A stretch of DNA of 52,857 nt, taken from the IMG/VR virus record IMGVR_UViG_3300020220_000072, positions 1 to 52,857 of that record; one strand, given 5' to 3'. A model generated the notes under the pieces. It searched no databases and had not been told where the DNA came from. It was given only the letters and a program-made list of their open reading frames with translations. How positions within the stretch are numbered: the first letter of the stretch is position 1; each line of letters starts with the position of its first letter. This DNA comes from a virus. Positions 28,940-52,857 of this stretch are shown piece after piece. The position numbers were made by a program, and so were the translations under genes.

Positions 28940-29176
28940 ATGCAAATGAAGAGGAATGTCGTAAGGTGGATGGAAAAAGATTGCGGTTGTGCCCATCAAA
29001 AGTGTAATAATACACCAAAGTCACCTTTCAGTGAAATGAATAATCCTCGCATTCCAAAAAAACCAGGACAACCAGATAAGTCTGATAAACACTCTAATCT
29101 CTGTACAGATGAAGATCCGAAGGGAACAATTCACGGATTGGGATTTAAGGATGTTGCAACTGCAAAACAAAAATGA
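28940..29176 (+). CDS. short Cys-containing protein, partial copy of the 844-residue mosaic, 78 residues
   Basis: Residues 1-32 contain a Cys cluster (EKDCGCAHQKC). Residues about 33-76 are nearly identical to residues 42-85 of the 844-residue protein downstream (EMNNPRIPKKPGQPDKSDKH, then PKGTIHGLGFKDVATAK), with Tyr replaced by Cys once. The frame ends where the full domain would continue (the longer copy goes on with ESVSKIKNSGRSHAHKIQ), so this is a truncated domain. The start is uncertain: ATG 28940, 28946 and 28970 are all in frame, and a second overlapping frame starting TTG at 28927 (PEDHANEEECRKVDGKRLRL, stop at 29005-29007) also looks protein-like. It may be a functional short paralogue or the debris of a duplication. 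Confidence 0.55.
   Translation: MQMKRNVVRWMEKDCGCAHQKCNNTPKSPFSEMNNPRIPKKPGQPDKSDKHSNLCTDEDPKGTIHGLGFKDVATAKQK
29033..29166 (+). repeat. direct repeat, copy 1 (partner at 30547)
   Basis: About 134 bases are shared with 30547-30680. The first 63 bases (29033-29095 and 30547-30609) are identical base for base; the rest differ at about ten positions. The copies are 1514 bases apart in the same orientation and flank the fibre gene at 29183-30424. Confidence 0.9.
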
Positions 29177-29182
29177 TAAAAA

Positions 29183-30424
29183 ATGGACACAGAACTCAAA
29201 GAATTTTTCTCACTTATAGGTAAAGCCAAAAAAGAAAAAGAGGATGAGTTTAAGTCACTTGTTGGAGAAATTAATATTGATTCCCTTTTTACGCAAGTCA
29301 AAGAATCAGTAAAAGAGGAAAAAGAAAAGAAAAAGAAAAAAGAAAAAGAAATTCAAAAGCAAGTTAAAGCTTTAGAATCTTGGTTGTATGCTGAACCTCT
29401 AAAAATTAAAAAAGAAGAAATTATTAAAGAGATTTCAGTTAAACAAGTAGAGTTACTATCTGATCAAATTACTGAAGAAGAACAAATAATTGAAACAACA
29501 GAGCAAGAAATTTTGCAGGTAGAGGTAGATGTAAAAAAAGAAAGCACCGTAGATAATGCTCTTAAAATTTTGGAGCAAATAAAGTCAAAAGAAGAAGTGC
29601 AGGAAAATATAAAAGATCCAGAAATTGCGAGAATAAGAAAAGAACTTGAATATTTAAAAAATCTTATAAGCACTCAGGGAGGTGGTGGTGAGGTTCGACT
29701 TGAGTTTTTAGATGATATTGATAGAAGCACTGCAAAAACAAATGACTTTTATTTGAGATATAACTCATCTTTAGATAAGTGGGTTGGAGCTGCAGTAACA
29801 AGTAGTGGTGGAGGGGGAACACAAACTTTAGATCAAACACTTGGATATGGAAATACCTCAAATATTGGAATGTCTGTTGGTGTTGTCACGGCAACATCAT
29901 TTGTTGGACCTCTAACAGGTAATGCAACAGGTCTTTCAGGCACACCAAATATTAATGTTGGGTCAATTATTGCCTCCAGTGCGACAATCTCGGGCAATGT
30001 TTCTATAGGAGGAACTCTTATCTATGAAGATGTAACAAATGTAGACTCCATTGGAATTGTAACAGCTAGATCTGGTATTGAAATTGGAGCAGGTAGTGCT
30101 ATTTCGTTGGTTTCTTTGGAAGCTGCATCATCATCAACAACTACAACATCATCTACAAGTATTGATACTTTTGATATTACTAAATATCGCTCTGCTCAAT
30201 ATCAAATTCAAATAACAAGAGGATCACTTTATCATTTAACCACGTTAAATGTTTTACATGATGGAACAGATGTTTATATTAATGAATTTGGAACAATTAG
30301 AACTTCAGAGTCTTTAGCGTCTTTTGATGCTGATATTAATTCTGGGAATGTAAGAATTTTGGTTATTCCAACATCAAACACTTCAACAACTTTTAAAATG
30401 TCTAAAGTACTTACAAAAATCTAA
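29183..30424 (+). CDS. tail-fibre-like protein with coiled-coil N-terminus, 413 residues
   Basis: Residues 1-165 are highly charged and helical (ELKEFFSLIGKAKKEKEDEF, then a Lys/Glu tract), with strong coiled-coil character. A glycine hinge follows at about 167-171. Next comes LEFLDDIDRSTAKTNDFYL-like sequence and then fibre-shaft repeats: GVVTATSFVGPLTGNATGLS, SGNVSIGGTLIYEDVTNVDS and IGIVTARSGIEIG. These are hallmark repeats of cyanophage fibres. The last 90 residues (YRSAQYQIQITRG, then VLHDGTDVYINEFGTIRTS) form a beta domain like the tandem units of the 1489-residue protein. It lies between two direct repeats, and its stop overlaps the next ATG by one base (TAATG). Probably an attachment fibre or whisker; ligand unknown. 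Confidence 0.8.
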   Translation: MDTELKEFFSLIGKAKKEKEDEFKSLVGEINIDSLFTQVKESVKEEKEKKKKKEKEIQKQVKALESWLYAEPLKIKKEEIIKEISVKQVELLSDQITEEEQIIETTEQEILQVEVDVKKESTVDNALKILEQIKSKEEVQENIKDPEIARIRKELEYLKNLISTQGGGGEVRLEFLDDIDRSTAKTNDFYLRYNSSLDKWVGAAVTSSGGGGTQTLDQTLGYGNTSNIGMSVGVVTATSFVGPLTGNATGLSGTPNINVGSIIASSATISGNVSIGGTLIYEDVTNVDSIGIVTARSGIEIGAGSAISLVSLEAASSSTTTTSSTSIDTFDITKYRSAQYQIQITRGSLYHLTTLNVLHDGTDVYINEFGTIRTSESLASFDADINSGNVRILVIPTSNTSTTFKMSKVLTKI

Positions 30425-32958
30425 TGAAAACCTTTAAACAATTTCAAGAAGACTGGACGAATAAATATAAAAAGAGTATTGATTGCTCTAATCCGAAAGG
30501 ATTTTCTCAGAAAGCTCATTGTGCGGGAAAAAAGAAGTCTATGTCTGAAATGAATAATCCTCGCATTCCAAAAAAACCAGGACAACCAGATAAGTCTGAT
30601 AAACACTCTGATCTTTACACAGACGAAGATCCAAAAGGAACAATTCACGGATTGGGATTTAAGGATGTTGCTACTGCCAAAGAGAGTGTTTCTAAGATTA
30701 AAAATTCTGGTAGATCACATGCTCACAAAATTCAAGCAGCAATTGCCATGGAACAAAGAGCAAAGGTAATGGGTAAAAGTTCAGAGTCTGCAATTTTTAG
30801 GAGTTTTATTAATTCAATGAAAGAAAAAACAAAAAAAATAAACGAAGAATCTAAATCCAAAAAGTGTAAACCTGGATATTATTACTGTAATACCAACAAA
30901 GAGTGTAAACCTCTTCCAAGTGGATTTAATACTCCTGGACAAACAATAAAACCAACAGAGGTGGGCATCGGTGTGCCGGTAGAGGTCTCTTGCAATCATA
31001 CAAAAAAAGGGAAAATGTGTCCTAAGCATGGTATGAAAGATTGTACGCTCATAGGAGAAACATTAAATAGTGTAACAGAAGAAGGACTTCGTGATTGGTT
31101 TGGCAAATCCAAATCAAAAGAAGGAAAATCTGGGTGGGTTAATGTAGTTACTGGTGGAACTTGTGCAAGTGATGAACCTGGAGAAGGAACGCCGAAGTGC
31201 GTCTCTTCTGCAAAGAGAGCAAGTATGACAAAGGCAGAAAGACTATCTGCCGCAAGAAGAAAGAAGGCAGCAGATCCTGGACAACAGGCAAAAACTGGTG
31301 CTGCAAAACCAACTTATGTTTCAACCGATGTCAAAGAGGGTTGGAGTGATAAATATAAGAAGTCAATTAATTGTGATAATCCAAAAGGGTTTTCTCAAAG
31401 AGCACACTGCCAAGGAAGGAAAAAGAAAATGGATGAACAAAGTTTTCAGATTAATACTTCGGCACATAACTCTGCACAGAAGCAACAGAAGATTAGAAAT
31501 CTTGCTACTGGAACAAACAATCCCAATGAAAAATCTGCTGCTATGAGAAAACTCTCTGGTCCTTCTTTACCTCTGGTAGATGAATACATTAATGAGGTAA
31601 AAGATAAAAAAGGTAAAGGCAGTGGAACTAAAGATGCCTGTTATCATAAAGTCAAGTCTCGTTATGACGTTTGGCCAAGTGCTTATGCTTCTGGTGCCCT
31701 CGTAAAGTGTCGCAAAGTAGGTGCTGCTAACTGGGGAACAAAATCAGAGGAAACAGTGGTTGATGAAGCACAGAAGTGTTGGCCAGGTTATAAAAAGAAA
31801 GGAACCAAAAAGATGTTTGGTAAAACTTATAATAATTGCGTAAAAGAATCAGAAGAGGTGAGATACTGCCCATTATGTAAGAAAAATGAGTCAAAGACAG
31901 ATTGTAGTTTTGGACCTGCTCTGTGGGAAAAGTATTCTATTGCAAAAGTTCATCCTGCAAATGAAGAAATGAGCATGAATGAGGCACTTCGTTCCAGAGA
32001 AGAAAGAATGGCACGAATGGCAACACCTAAAACAAAAAAAGAGCAGGAGAAAAAAAGAGTATTAAGAAGCAAAGCAGAAGAAATTTTATCCGACATTCAG
32101 GCATTGAAAAAAGGTAAAACTAAATCTTCAACGAAATCACAAAAATTTACCACACCAGAAGCAGAAATTAGAAAATTAAAACCAGGACAAAGAAAAGATA
32201 CTCTTGCATTAAAGGCATCAAAAGCAATGCATGAAGAATCTAATCTTATGAGATATAATGAATATGGACAAACTTATGTGATTAGATTCACTTGGAGAGG
32301 TTTGATGTATAAAGTTCAAATTTTTATTCCATCTCTCAAAAGACCCAGTGCTCAAGAAATTAAAACACAGTTAAATAAAATTTATCCAGGTGCTCAATTA
32401 CTTCTTTTTCAACCAAAAGAAAATGATCCCGTAGATCCTACAATTGTTTTTGCAAAAGAAGATCGTGATTTAGATGAAGGTAAAGCAGATAAAAAACTTC
32501 CTGAGCATGAAAGATCTGCAGCAAGACTTAAGAGATACTCAAATCCAAGTGGTGCTTTAGCATTGGGTGGTGGTCAACAAAGAGCACGTAGAGCAGAGCA
32601 TGAGGCACGTAGAGGTAAATCAAAACGTTGGTGGGATGACGATGGAGATGGAATTGGTTATGAAAAAGGTGAGGTGTCTGGAAAATTCAAGGAAGATTTA
32701 GACATCAATGAAGTTGCAGCATGGCAACGTAGAGAAGGAAAAAATAGGAGCGGAGGCCTTAATGAGAAGGGCAGGAAGTCCTATGAAAGGGATAATCCAG
32801 GGTCAGATCTCAAAGCACCTTCAAAGAAGGTTGGAAACCCACGCAGAGCATCATTCTGTGCCAGAATGAGTGGTATGAAAAGAAAACTTACTTCTGCAAA
32901 AACTGCAAATGATCCCAATAGCAGAATTAATAAAAGTCTGAGAGCTTGGAATTGTTGA
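30424..32958 (+). CDS. 844-residue Cys-rich, Lys-rich mosaic protein, possible internal head protein
   Basis: The start MKTFKQFQEDW resembles the T4 internal-protein leader. Segments in order: 11-43 KYKKSIDCSNPKGFSQKAHC; 42-135 an SDLYTDEDPKGTIHGLGF domain with GRSHAHKIQAAIAMEQRAK; 148-210 Cys clusters (CKPGYYYC, CNHTKKGKMCPKHGMKDC); 235-300 WVNVVTGGTCASDEPGEGTP plus a basic tail; 306-338 a second copy of the first motif; 402-440 DACYHKVKSRYDVWPSAYAS; 482-497 CPLCKKNESKTDC; 610-685 a beta domain (YVIRFTWRGLMYKVQIF); 763-844 AAWQRREGKNRSGG to RASFCARMSGMKRKLTS and RAWNC. Several of these are DUF domains found singly in other marine T4-like phages; the last recalls DUF6321 (from memory). Sequences fitting [IL]-x-E occur after residues 141, 212, 391, 685 and 763, mostly between domains. 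It may be a DNA-binding head protein processed by gp21; this is inference. Confidence 0.7.
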   Translation: MKTFKQFQEDWTNKYKKSIDCSNPKGFSQKAHCAGKKKSMSEMNNPRIPKKPGQPDKSDKHSDLYTDEDPKGTIHGLGFKDVATAKESVSKIKNSGRSHAHKIQAAIAMEQRAKVMGKSSESAIFRSFINSMKEKTKKINEESKSKKCKPGYYYCNTNKECKPLPSGFNTPGQTIKPTEVGIGVPVEVSCNHTKKGKMCPKHGMKDCTLIGETLNSVTEEGLRDWFGKSKSKEGKSGWVNVVTGGTCASDEPGEGTPKCVSSAKRASMTKAERLSAARRKKAADPGQQAKTGAAKPTYVSTDVKEGWSDKYKKSINCDNPKGFSQRAHCQGRKKKMDEQSFQINTSAHNSAQKQQKIRNLATGTNNPNEKSAAMRKLSGPSLPLVDEYINEVKDKKGKGSGTKDACYHKVKSRYDVWPSAYASGALVKCRKVGAANWGTKSEETVVDEAQKCWPGYKKKGTKKMFGKTYNNCVKESEEVRYCPLCKKNESKTDCSFGPALWEKYSIAKVHPANEEMSMNEALRSREERMARMATPKTKKEQEKKRVLRSKAEEILSDIQALKKGKTKSSTKSQKFTTPEAEIRKLKPGQRKDTLALKASKAMHEESNLMRYNEYGQTYVIRFTWRGLMYKVQIFIPSLKRPSAQEIKTQLNKIYPGAQLLLFQPKENDPVDPTIVFAKEDRDLDEGKADKKLPEHERSAARLKRYSNPSGALALGGGQQRARRAEHEARRGKSKRWWDDDGDGIGYEKGEVSGKFKEDLDINEVAAWQRREGKNRSGGLNEKGRKSYERDNPGSDLKAPSKKVGNPRRASFCARMSGMKRKLTSAKTANDPNSRINKSLRAWNC
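30547..30680 (+). repeat. direct repeat, copy 2 (inside the mosaic gene)
   Basis: Partner of 29033-29166. Here the sequence is part of a complete domain that continues downstream, so this is probably the parent copy and the upstream one the truncated derivative. Confidence 0.9.
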
Positions 32959-40428: not shown

Positions 40429-40456
40429 AAACTATGTTGAGCTGGCGGAAAGAGCA

Positions 40457-41110
40457 ATTAAATTAATCACAGAAGAAATTGAAAATGTAGAAGTTATCGT
40501 TGAAAACCGTAACGGTAAAAGATCTTTGTACATTGAAGGTGTTTTTCTTCAAGGAAACATTTGCAACCGTAATGGTAGAATGTATCCAATAAACATCCTT
40601 TCTCGTGAGGTTGGTCGTTACAACGAAAACTTCATTCAAAAAGGACGTGCTTTAGGAGAACTCGGTCATCCAGATGGTCCAACCGTCAATCTTGACCGTG
40701 TTTCTCATAAGATTGTTTCTCTTCGTCAAGAAGGAAACAATTATATTGGTAAAGCAAAGATTCTCGAATCCACCCCAATGGGTAAAATTGCATCTTCACT
40801 TTTAAGTGAGGGTGTAAAACTTGGTGTTTCTTCTCGTGGTGTTGGTTCTCTCAGACAAAGCAATGAAGGTTATAGTATGGTAGGAGAAGATTTTACTCTT
40901 GCCACCGCTGCTGACATTGTTGCTGATCCTTCTGCTCCTGACGCTTTTGTTTCAGGAATTATGGAAGGCAAAGATTGGGTTTGGGATAATGGAGTTTTAC
41001 GTGAAAGAATGGCAGCAAAGACATATAAAAGAATAAATACATTGGTTGATCAAAAAAGGTTAGATGAACAGAAATTAAATCTGTTTGACGACTTTTTAGC
41101 AAATCTTTAA
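40457..41110 (+). CDS. gp21: prohead core protease gp21, probable ATT start
   Basis: From 40457 the product has 217 residues, close to T4 gp21 (212). It is the serine protease that matures the prohead by cutting gp23, gp22 and internal proteins after [IL]-x-E. Visible are NRNGRMYPINILSREV, the catalytic-His region ALGELGHPDGPTVNLDRVSH (His71), and the Ser region GVKLGVSSRGVGSL (Ser125 or 126). The frame is open back to 40430, but contains no ATG or GTG before the conserved core; the first TTG (40526) would remove about 23 residues. From memory, cyanophage gp21 starts MKLITEE, matching IKLITEE at ATT 40457, with GGAAAGAG upstream as ribosome binding site. An ATG at 40434 is in another frame and stops after ten codons. 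Confidence 0.88.
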   Translation: MKLITEEIENVEVIVENRNGKRSLYIEGVFLQGNICNRNGRMYPINILSREVGRYNENFIQKGRALGELGHPDGPTVNLDRVSHKIVSLRQEGNNYIGKAKILESTPMGKIASSLLSEGVKLGVSSRGVGSLRQSNEGYSMVGEDFTLATAADIVADPSAPDAFVSGIMEGKDWVWDNGVLRERMAAKTYKRINTLVDQKRLDEQKLNLFDDFLANL

Positions 41111-41156: not shown

Positions 41157-42212
41157 ATGTCCCGTGGTAAAAATTTACAAGAGATGGAAATAGGCACTGT
41201 TCAATCCAAGTCCGCAGTGAATGCATCGGCAAGTGCGCCAGATCAAATGCAAACTATGGCTGGTGTTAGTTATGAGGACTTAGGTGGTCCTGATCCATCA
41301 AACTACAGACCAGATGACGATTCAGCAAAGTTGAGAGACGCTGGTGGCGGTCTCAAAAAGGTTTCTCTTGTCGCTGCTCAACAAGTAGCAAAAGAAGAGT
41401 ATGAAGAGGTTGAAGAAGAGGATTTTGAAACCGAAGAAGAGTATGAGGAAGAAGTTTTTGAAGAAGAAGCACTTCCCGAAATCAACGACGATGTTGACAT
41501 CGAAGATGATGTCAATGCTCTTCTTGTAGGTGAAGAACTCTCTGAAGGTTTTAAAGATAAAGCAAAAACTATTTTTGAAGCTGCTCTCAAATCAAAAGTT
41601 ATTGAAGTGAGAGAAGCTTTTGAAGCACATTATGAAGCAAAACTTGTTGAGGAAGTAGAAGTCCTCAAAGAAGAATTAGTTGAGAGAGTAGATTCATATC
41701 TTGAGTATGTTGCAGATGAGTGGTTCGCTGAGAACACTCTTGCGATTGAAAAAGGTCTCAAGTCAGAACTCACAGAGTCATTCCTTGAGGGTCTCAAGGG
41801 ACTTTTTGAAGAAAATTATGTATCAATCCCTGAAGATAAGTATGATGTTGTTGAGAATATGGCAGATAAACTTGACGAAATGGAGACAAAACTCAACGAG
41901 CAGATTGAGAAAAACATTTTCCTAAACAAACGTCTCGCAGAGTCGGTTGCAGATGGAATCCTTTTTGATGTTTCTGAGGGTCTTGCGATTACTCAGAAAG
42001 AGAAGCTTGCTTCACTTGCCGAAAGTGTTGAGTTTGAGAGTGAAGAATCTTATAGAGAGAAGCTTGAAGTATTGAGAGAATCATACTTCCAACAAGCTGC
42101 TCCATACAGAAGTGAATCTGAAACACTTAACGAATCAGCACAAACAGGCATAGATTACTCTGATGCTATGAGCGCATACGTTAACGTGCTTTCTAAATCA
42201 GTTCAGAAGTGA
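41157..42212 (+). CDS. gp22: prohead scaffold core protein gp22
   Basis: The 351 residues compare with 269 for T4 gp22, the main scaffold of the prohead, later cut to small peptides by gp21. The N-terminal 80 residues are flexible (KNLQEMEIGTVQSKSAVNAS). A run of almost pure Glu/Asp/Tyr follows at about 78-125, and then 200 residues of acidic coiled coil (EVREAFEAHYEAKLVEEVEV and similar). Many [IL]-x-E tripeptides are present, as expected for a gp21 substrate. The C-terminus, GIDYSDAMSAYVNVLSKSVQ, is the conserved segment that contacts the capsid lattice in this family. AATCGGAGAG upstream gives a good ribosome binding site. Confidence 0.93.
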   Translation: MSRGKNLQEMEIGTVQSKSAVNASASAPDQMQTMAGVSYEDLGGPDPSNYRPDDDSAKLRDAGGGLKKVSLVAAQQVAKEEYEEVEEEDFETEEEYEEEVFEEEALPEINDDVDIEDDVNALLVGEELSEGFKDKAKTIFEAALKSKVIEVREAFEAHYEAKLVEEVEVLKEELVERVDSYLEYVADEWFAENTLAIEKGLKSELTESFLEGLKGLFEENYVSIPEDKYDVVENMADKLDEMETKLNEQIEKNIFLNKRLAESVADGILFDVSEGLAITQKEKLASLAESVEFESEESYREKLEVLRESYFQQAAPYRSESETLNESAQTGIDYSDAMSAYVNVLSKSVQK

Positions 42213-42262: not shown

Positions 42263-43663
42263 ATGTTCAACGCAGAACATCTGCAGGAAAAGTGGGCACC
42301 ACTCTTAGACCATAATGGTCTGGATCACATCAAAGATTCCCATCGTAGAGCCGTAACCGCTGTCCTGTTAGAGAACCAAGAAAGATTCCTCCGTGAGGAA
42401 AGATCATTCCTTTCGGAAGCTCCAACTGTCAATACAAATACTGGAGCAAATGCTGGTTTCAGTGCTAATGCAACTGCAACTGGTCCTGTAGCTGGTTTTG
42501 ATCCAGTTCTGATCTCTCTGATCAGACGTTCAATGCCTAATCTGGTTGCTTATGATCTGGCTGGTGTTCAACCAATGAACGCACCTACTGGTCTGATCTT
42601 TGCAATGCGTTCACGCTATAATAATCAGTCTGGAACTGAATCATTCTTCAACGAAGTTGATACTGCATTCTCTGGTATTGGTACTACCAACGGAGCAATG
42701 GGTTCAACCACTCCTGGAATGGTTAATGCTGCGGTTGGTCTCGGTACTACTGGTCAAGGTGGAAGCAATCCTGGACTTCTGAATCCTTCAACAACTGCTA
42801 CCCAAGCTGCTTACAGCGTTGGTGAAGGCATGAGAACGGATGATGCAGAGAATCTGGGTGCTCCTGGTGGTCAGGCATTCAACGAGATGGCATTCTCAAT
42901 CGAGAAAGTCACCGTTACTGCAAAGTCAAGAGCTCTGAAAGCTGAATACTCGTTGGAACTCGCACAAGACCTGAAAGCAATTCATGGTCTGAATGCTGAG
43001 GCAGAACTGGCGAACATTCTCTCGACTGAGATTTTGGCTGAGATCAACCGTGAAGTTATCAGAACCATCTATAAGGTTGCTGAAACTGGTGCTCAAGTCA
43101 ACACCCAAACCGCTGGTACTTTCAACCTTGACGTTGACTCCAACGGTCGTTGGTCGGTTGAGAAGTTCAAGGGTCTGCTCTTCCAAATTGAGCGTGATGC
43201 AAACGCAATTGCACAAAGAACTCGTAGAGGAAAGGGTAACATCATCCTGTGTTCTGCTGACGTTGCTTCAGCACTGACCATGGCTGGTGTTCTCGATTAC
43301 ACCCCTGCACTCAATGCTAACCTGAACGTTGATGATACTGGCAACACCTTTGCTGGTGTTATCAATGGTAAGTATAGAGTCTACATTGATCCTTATTCGG
43401 CAAACGTTGCTGCTACCCAGTACTACGTTATCGGTTATAAGGGCACCTCACCTTATGATGCAGGTCTATTCTATTGCCCATACGTTCCTCTCCAAATGGT
43501 TCGTGCCGTTGGTCAGGACACCTTCCAGCCCAAGATTGGCTTCAAGACCCGTTACGGAATGGTTGAGAATCCATTCTCGCAGGGTACTACACAAGGTTCG
43601 GGTACACTCACTGTTAATAGCAACCGCTACTACAGAAGAGTATCTGTCACCAACCTTATGTGA
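42263..43663 (+). CDS. gp23: major capsid protein gp23
   Basis: The 466 residues compare with 521 for T4 gp23. The N-terminal region (residues 1-52) reads like the T4 delta domain, with RRAVTAVLLENQERFLREER, and ends FLSE followed by A; cleavage by gp21 after Glu52 would fit the [IL]-x-E rule. The HK97-fold body includes PNLVAYDLAGVQPMNAPTGL, YSLELAQDLKAIHGL, ILCSADVASALTMAG, and VGQDTFQPKIGFKTRYGMV near the C-terminus. Base composition is clearly richer in G+C than in the neighbours, with CGT for Arg and CTG for Leu, as expected for the most highly expressed gene. AGAGGTAA upstream is a strong ribosome binding site, and a terminator follows. Confidence 0.98.
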   Translation: MFNAEHLQEKWAPLLDHNGLDHIKDSHRRAVTAVLLENQERFLREERSFLSEAPTVNTNTGANAGFSANATATGPVAGFDPVLISLIRRSMPNLVAYDLAGVQPMNAPTGLIFAMRSRYNNQSGTESFFNEVDTAFSGIGTTNGAMGSTTPGMVNAAVGLGTTGQGGSNPGLLNPSTTATQAAYSVGEGMRTDDAENLGAPGGQAFNEMAFSIEKVTVTAKSRALKAEYSLELAQDLKAIHGLNAEAELANILSTEILAEINREVIRTIYKVAETGAQVNTQTAGTFNLDVDSNGRWSVEKFKGLLFQIERDANAIAQRTRRGKGNIILCSADVASALTMAGVLDYTPALNANLNVDDTGNTFAGVINGKYRVYIDPYSANVAATQYYVIGYKGTSPYDAGLFYCPYVPLQMVRAVGQDTFQPKIGFKTRYGMVENPFSQGTTQGSGTLTVNSNRYYRRVSVTNLM

Positions 43664-52685: not shown

Positions 52686-52857
52686 ATGAAGACCTTTAAG
52701 GAATTTATCTCTGAAGCAAGAGACTTAAATGAAACCTCACTTACTCGTGTAATGAGTAAATCAAAAAAGGGTGGCATGGCAATTATGTCAGCTCAACGTG
52801 GTGACAAATCCAAAGCAGAAAACAAAGCACGTTCACGGCAACTTGAACGTGATATTA
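52686..52857 (+). CDS. 5' part of a gene with a capsid-targeting-like leader, truncated by the window edge
   Basis: ATG at 52686, open to the end of the window (57 codons visible). The start MKTFKEFISEARD closely resembles the leaders of T4 internal head proteins, which I recall as MKTYQEFIAEA, and has the gp21 rule [IL]-x-E followed by Ala (I-S-E, A) at residue 10. The following residues are strongly basic (SKSKKGG, RGDKSKAENKARSRQLERD), like DNA-packaged internal proteins. It may be an internal protein ejected with the DNA. The rest of the gene is outside the window. Confidence 0.6.
   Translation, partial: MKTFKEFISEARDLNETSLTRVMSKSKKGGMAIMSAQRGDKSKAENKARSRQLERDI

Follow-up and report, generated by a model that had tools for sequence, protein, structure and literature searches.

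A modular gene between g16 and g17

We analyzed a 52.9-kb virus fragment from IMG/VR (record IMGVR_UViG_3300020220_000072, 52,857 nucleotides; the window hereafter), with a focus on the mosaic protein P0001, which is encoded at 30424–32958 on the plus strand. Re-reading this open reading frame (ORF) gave 844 residues, an exact match to the first-pass annotation of the DNA. The gene order of the window is T4-like and runs gp13, gp14, gp15, gp16, small ORFs, the mosaic gene, gp17, gp18, gp19, gp20, gp21, gp22, and gp23, with names assigned by the resemblance of the translations and by comparison with the gene order of annotated relatives. The source phage is a T4-like cyanophage, with the mosaic sited in the g16-g17 region, a hot spot in phages of this type (PMC3037559).

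P0001 has an isoelectric point (pI) of 9.8, a net charge of +75, and 21 Cys. Pfam, PHROGs, and annotated homologues place it in the T4-GC119/PHROG 727 family. PHROG 727 matches most of the protein (E 4e-129), and further matches include PHROG 3477 and others, none with an assigned function. Against Pfam, the only domain found was DUF6321 (PF19846) at the C-terminus (75.9 bits, cut-off 28.5, E 3.8e-21), and a PDB sequence search returned zero matches. Relatives, found in 495 phage records (most of them from Synechococcus and Prochlorococcus phages), carry the annotation T4-GC 119, placed between g16 and g17. In P-SSM4 (L205, 1445–5953), the mosaic gene lies away from g16-g17 and close to a cytidylyltransferase gene of family T4-GC190 that bears the N-terminal leader described below. 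The 14 cellular loci with homologues lie almost exclusively on metagenome-assembled contigs and are probably phage contamination. The literature searched yielded no function, processing, or module map for the T4-GC119/PHROG 727/DUF6321 family.

Local alignment ends of P0001 cluster at residues 38, 190, 214, 302/303, 335, 389, 474, 615, 674, and 757–767. Profiles of 13 module types, with A present twice in P0001, were run over the relatives and gave about 55 architectures. Where the first-pass annotation had counted at least seven small basic domains, P0001 holds even more, about 14 modules. Nearly all are basic (pI 9.4–11.2; the exception is module I at 7.9), and the pooled linkers are acidic (pI 4.1, net charge -19).

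All features of P0001 lie on the plus strand. After the leader MKTFKQFQED (30424–30453) comes module A1 (30454–30537; YKKSIDCSNPKGFSQ), which in most relatives is found in a separate leader+A ORF directly upstream of the mosaic. Module B (30550–30837; NPRIPKKPGQP...) is mostly helical and is followed by the junction site INE (Glu141, 30838–30846). A remnant of a duplication, in which a D-like piece and module B are repeated in truncated form, makes up a 78-residue ORF at 28940–29176. Next are the Cys-rich module C (30853–30981; CKPGYYYCNTNKECKP) and module D (30985–31047; CNHTKKGKMCPKHGMKDC), which has zinc-knuckle-like spacing and is followed by IGE (Glu212, 31051–31059). Module E (31069–31323; LRDWFGKSKSKEGKSGWVNVVTGGTCASD...) leads to VKE (Glu305, 31330–31338), then to A2 (31339–31428), the second copy of A, and to module F (31447–31581) with INE (Glu391, 31588–31596). 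Module G (31615–31746; KDACYHKVKSRYDVWPSAYASGALVKCRKVGAANWG) is DUF5872-like but under the cut-off (15.8 bits against 27.5); when the modules were searched separately against Pfam, DUF6321 alone passed its cut-off. Beyond VDE (Glu448, then Ala; 31759–31767) are modules H (31774–31845; CWPGYKKKGTKKMFGKTYNNC) and I (31858–31968; YCPLCKKNESKTDC...), the site MNE (Glu520, then Ala; 31975–31983), the helical and strongly basic module J (31984–32241), and module K (32260–32445), a predicted beta-beta-alpha-beta mini-domain. The final sites, LDE (Glu685, 32470–32478) and INE (Glu763, 32704–32712), flank module L (32482–32694), and the protein closes with module M, which is DUF6321 (32713–32955).

The statement in the first-pass annotation that such domains occur singly elsewhere was also confirmed. 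The leader is joined to A alone in a 51-residue ORF, to H in L022 and L039, to K in SSCSM1_30 of phage S-SCSM1, to B in L010, and to DUF6321 in L062 and L118; DUF6321 also stands alone in podophages.

Hydrophobic-x-Glu sites at module junctions

The genome encodes a gp21 prohead protease as well as gp22 and gp23. The gp21 reading frame (40430–41110, plus strand) has ATT at 40457 where homologues have ATG (MKLI[RT]EEIE). ATT is probably the start, read as a non-canonical AUU codon, unless it reflects an error in sequencing or loss of the start. The gp22 scaffold (41157–42212, plus strand) contains 16 [IL]-x-E sites and served as the positive control. The gp23 cleavage site SF-LSE/A (42410–42418, plus strand; slash at the cut) aligns with T4 SF-LTE/A, and the specificity of the protease therefore appears to be conserved.

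The five [IL]-x-E sites proposed in the first-pass annotation (Glu141, 212, 391, 685, and 763) are all real, but three more that it had left out (Glu502, 694, and 781) fall inside modules. Its claim that such sites lie mostly between domains is thus borne out in direction (5/8 in linkers) and falls short of significance against the other Glu residues (14/53; Fisher p=0.09). With the broader motif [ILVMF]-x-E, 12/20 are in linkers (p=0.001). As the [IL]-x-E test on P0001 was not significant, testing was moved to the family, using 45 non-redundant mosaics.

Across these mosaics, the density of [IL]-x-E is 11-fold higher in linkers than in modules. Against shuffled controls the linker excess kept its direction and was small (1.14x, z 1.7), since the contrast between linkers and modules is mostly one of composition, the linkers being Glu-rich; controls on offset, junction position, and neighboring residue were therefore needed. 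Of all offsets in similarity-collapsed linkers, Glu at +2 from a hydrophobic residue stands out most (141 vs 91, z 6.1). Ala is commoner after [ILVM]-x-E than after other Glu residues (odds ratio 3.4, p=4e-4), with no such preference in control ORFs. The gp22 control has the same +2 peak at 1.70x, compared with 1.03x for other genes of the window, and Glu/Lys-rich pieces of other ORFs give 1.25x at +2 and -2 alike, with no Ala preference.

The signal is also positioned. [ILVMF]-x-E is present within the 12 residues that precede a module in 112/158 cases against 53.5±5.2 expected, and [IL]-x-E in 46 against 20.8±3.8. Replacing the Glu by Asp, Gln, or Lys gives 0.97x, 0.95x, and 0.53x, and [KR]-x-E gives 0.90x. 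With close relatives of P0001 excluded, the motif occurs in 89% of the last 12-residue stretches before a module, compared with 22% of other 12-mers from the same linkers. By these counts, hydrophobic-x-Glu is enriched at predicted accessible junctions, as would be expected of gp21 substrates. In the AlphaFold model of P0001, 4/5 of the Glu sites listed in the first-pass annotation have a predicted local distance difference test (pLDDT) score under 50, and Glu141 is near a helix end.

A capsid-targeting-type leader

The first ten residues of P0001 resemble the T4 internal proteins, as the first-pass annotation had suggested: MKTFKQF compares with MKTFKEF at the start of IPI and with MKTYQEFIAE at the start of IPII and IPIII, which are cut before the Ala. 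In T4 IPIII, targeting depends on residues 4 and 7 and processing on residues 8 and 10; with Asp at position 10, the protein is still targeted but no longer processed (PMC9026906). The P0001 leader has the aromatic residues F4 and F7 of a T4-type capsid-targeting sequence and lacks the [IL]8-x-E10 processing site, which is occupied by Q8 and D10. A processed internal-protein leader is therefore not supported here; since F4 and F7 are kept and Q8 and D10 are present, the leader is predicted to target without being removed.

Scanning DNA for the pattern MKTFK[QE]F retrieved at least 120 stretches. Among the matches listed, the leader proteins, from aquatic phages, form at least 77 clusters that are unrelated past residue 12. 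In 25 of the 77 clusters, residue 10 is the last of an [IL]-x-E motif, compared with a mean of 0.8 and a maximum of 5 over residues 11–40, and Ala is the commonest residue 11. With the strict pattern M..[FYW]..[FYW][ILMVF].E, a scan of 49.5 kb of T4 returned ipII and ipIII only. In phage S-CREM2, all four annotated strict-leader genes are in the published virion proteome (52 proteins from 219 genes; p=0.003), namely a SAM hydrolase, an APH-like kinase, a cytidylyltransferase, and gp136. The NMNAT of S-SCSM1, which was detected by mass spectrometry (MS), begins MKSFLQFLKE/A. SSCSM1_30 also matches the strict pattern, yet has no virion-detection label, which brings the two phages together to 5/6 (p=0.002). 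The P-SSM4 homologue of the cytidylyltransferase/NMNAT begins MKKFSAFLKE/A and belongs to family T4-GC190, which was detected in S-SM1 virions (PMC3037559). Based on the likeness to T4, the peak at residue 10, the virion proteome matches, and the result of the T4 scan, the leader is very probably a capsid-targeting sequence. No description of it in cyanophages was found in the literature searched.

Other leader-like sequences were also seen. A second leader ORF in the window (52686–52857; MKTFKEFISEAR...) has a textbook cleavable capsid-targeting sequence and is interrupted by the contig end. A leader-bearing protein in L085 (6037–6813) has an ART-PolyVal ADP-ribosyltransferase domain (E 1e-23), which recalls T4 Alt. 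S-CREM2 gp12 (L216, 7704–10313), a virion-detected Cas9-like protein, has a shifted leader-like motif, FASFMAE/AAVD, near its N-terminus. Finally, a phage major capsid protein (PF05065) in L060 (4567–5838) has the leader-like start MKTFKQFLES, so the pattern is not confined to T4-like cargo.

In most relatives the leader is not part of the mosaic itself. Of 102 relatives, 3 have it fused to the mosaic, 68 have it on a separate ORF upstream, and 31 lack it. A separate leader+A ORF precedes the mosaic in 47/74 loci that have both flanks and nearly always reads MKTFKQFQE[DE]W. Leader ORFs directly downstream (12/74 loci) nearly always have [LIM]SE at positions 8–10.

Virion detection and predicted structure

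The MS evidence that bears on P0001 comes from two homologues only. The annotation of S-SCSM1, whose proteome was measured (PMC9602691), labels SSCSM1_29 (517 residues) as a virion protein, and S-CREM2 gp137 was detected with four peptides and 4.1% coverage (PMC10665884). The latter is a shorter relative with module K and a DUF6321-like C-terminus, as assigned by eye. Together with the capsid-targeting-type leader, these detections support the earlier proposal that the protein is packed in the virion, and packaging of the family is well supported.

AlphaFold gave no global fold for whole P0001 (mean pLDDT 48.5), and the model was unusable for a fold search. Module K alone was modeled with a confident beta-beta-alpha-beta core. 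Compared with PDB structures, YkzG (the epsilon subunit of RNA polymerase) and T7 Gp2 were in the top three, though the matches are weak (E 0.18–0.34), and the predicted likeness to the T7 Gp2/epsilon fold is a lead only.

A model for P0001 and its alternatives

We propose, with about an even chance of being right, that P0001 is a head-cargo precursor whose junctions are cut by gp21 and whose basic peptides are kept with the DNA. Its modules, shuffled between phages, would be joined by acidic linkers that carry the gp21 sites. F4 and F7 of the leader would take P0001 into the prohead core, and Q8 and D10 would leave the leader itself uncut. During head maturation gp21 would cut many junctions, releasing basic peptides that would remain associated with the DNA and probably accompany it into the cell. 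The gp21 cutting predicted in the first-pass annotation finds its support in family-wide sequence statistics, checked against a positive control (gp22) and negative controls, and ejection and any effector action are suggested by analogy with the T4 internal proteins.

Several points weigh against this model. No cleavage product of the mosaic has been observed so far. T4 gp21 is documented for L/I-x-E, whereas much of the junction signal is V/M-x-E. P0001 was the template on which the boundaries for the 112/158 and 89% counts were originally marked, and some of the enrichment at junctions may consequently reflect a site that each module family inherited; when boundaries are taken from homology ends only, the motif is found within six residues in 46% vs 24%. 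Contaminants are possible in CsCl-purified proteomes, and podophages have DUF6321 in short proteins without a leader. A 99.8% identical relative (L122) has a GAA to TAA stop at leader codon 9 (548–580), and a 99% identical one (L123) has the leader replaced altogether, both of which weaken the idea that an in-frame leader is essential in this population. The MS-detected homologues SSCSM1_29 and S-CREM2 gp137 have no leader, so at least these mosaics enter the virion by another route. A role for the leader in packaging all mosaics was rejected on these grounds and on its rarity as a fusion.

These leaderless homologues also fit a possible, if doubtful, alternative in which P0001 stays intact in the virion as a flexible string of basic beads that condenses DNA or links neck, fiber, or head parts, the motif being a habit of its linkers. 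The placement of the gene among neck, fiber, and terminase genes and the lack of a global fold in AlphaFold agree with such a string. A mere linker habit would not explain why the motif is specific to Glu at +2, rather than to Asp, Lys, Gln, or other spacings, or why it is concentrated beside modules and common to gp22 while absent from other genes.

P0001 could instead be a scaffold-type protein of the prohead core that aids assembly without delivery, with gp21 fragments mostly lost before packaging, like T4 gp67 and gp68. Its acidic, site-rich linkers are like gp22, and few of the 52 detected proteins have peptide coverage as low as that of S-CREM2 gp137. We consider this unlikely: core proteins are acidic, whereas the modules are basic and rich in Cys; module content varies greatly among phages, unlike a core assembly factor; and the S-SCSM1 homologue was detected in mature virions. 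More improbable still is that the hyperplastic g16-g17 region, a known hot spot with its roughly 55 architectures, duplicated A, and truncated D/B copy, is a recombination scrapyard whose modules recombine at conserved linkers and leave the motif as a by-product of shared junctions, since the motif is kept where the neighboring linker diverges (de-duplicated windows), the reading frames remain open, and virions contain expressed homologues.

The cargo-precursor model can be extended, more tentatively, to a polyprotein with an uncleavable leader that is cut at most junctions into around a dozen ejected basic mini-proteins, forming an exchangeable module cassette within a wider leader-tag delivery system. 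If so, aquatic T4-like phages would tag many unrelated proteins, such as a cytidylyltransferase/NMNAT, a SAM hydrolase, a kinase, and an ADP-ribosyltransferase, for delivery, a single gene would equip a phage with an entire set of proteins to inject, and exchange of modules would be the reason why the g16-g17 hot spot is so variable. The leader itself could serve as a sequence rule that predicts cyanophage head cargo; it agrees with what MS detected in two phages and would explain why cytidylyltransferase/NMNAT, SAM hydrolase, and kinase proteins are found in cyanophage virions.

Comparison with known systems

P0001 belongs to the same family, at the same g16-g17 locus, as the hypothetical cyanophage proteins annotated T4-GC119, PHROG 727, or DUF6321. 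Like T4 IPI, IPII, and IPIII, which carry a capsid-targeting sequence, it has an N-terminal MKT[FY]xxF leader and is basic, and it would likewise be packed with the DNA. The T4 proteins, however, are single proteins with a cleavable leader, whereas P0001 has about 14 modules behind a leader with Q8 and D10, and most of its relatives have no fused leader. With T4 gp22, gp67, and gp68, P0001 shares many hydrophobic-x-Glu sites in acidic sequence and a predicted cutting by gp21 into multiple fragments. Those core proteins are acidic and, for the most part, leave the head, while the fragments of P0001 would be basic and modular. SPN3US gp53 and gp54 and the phiKZ inner-body proteins are also head-packed proteins that each receive several cuts from the prohead protease (PMC10052503, PMC9026906). 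In those systems, the additional cuts free a single mature protein from its propeptide, whereas in P0001 each module would be a product in itself.

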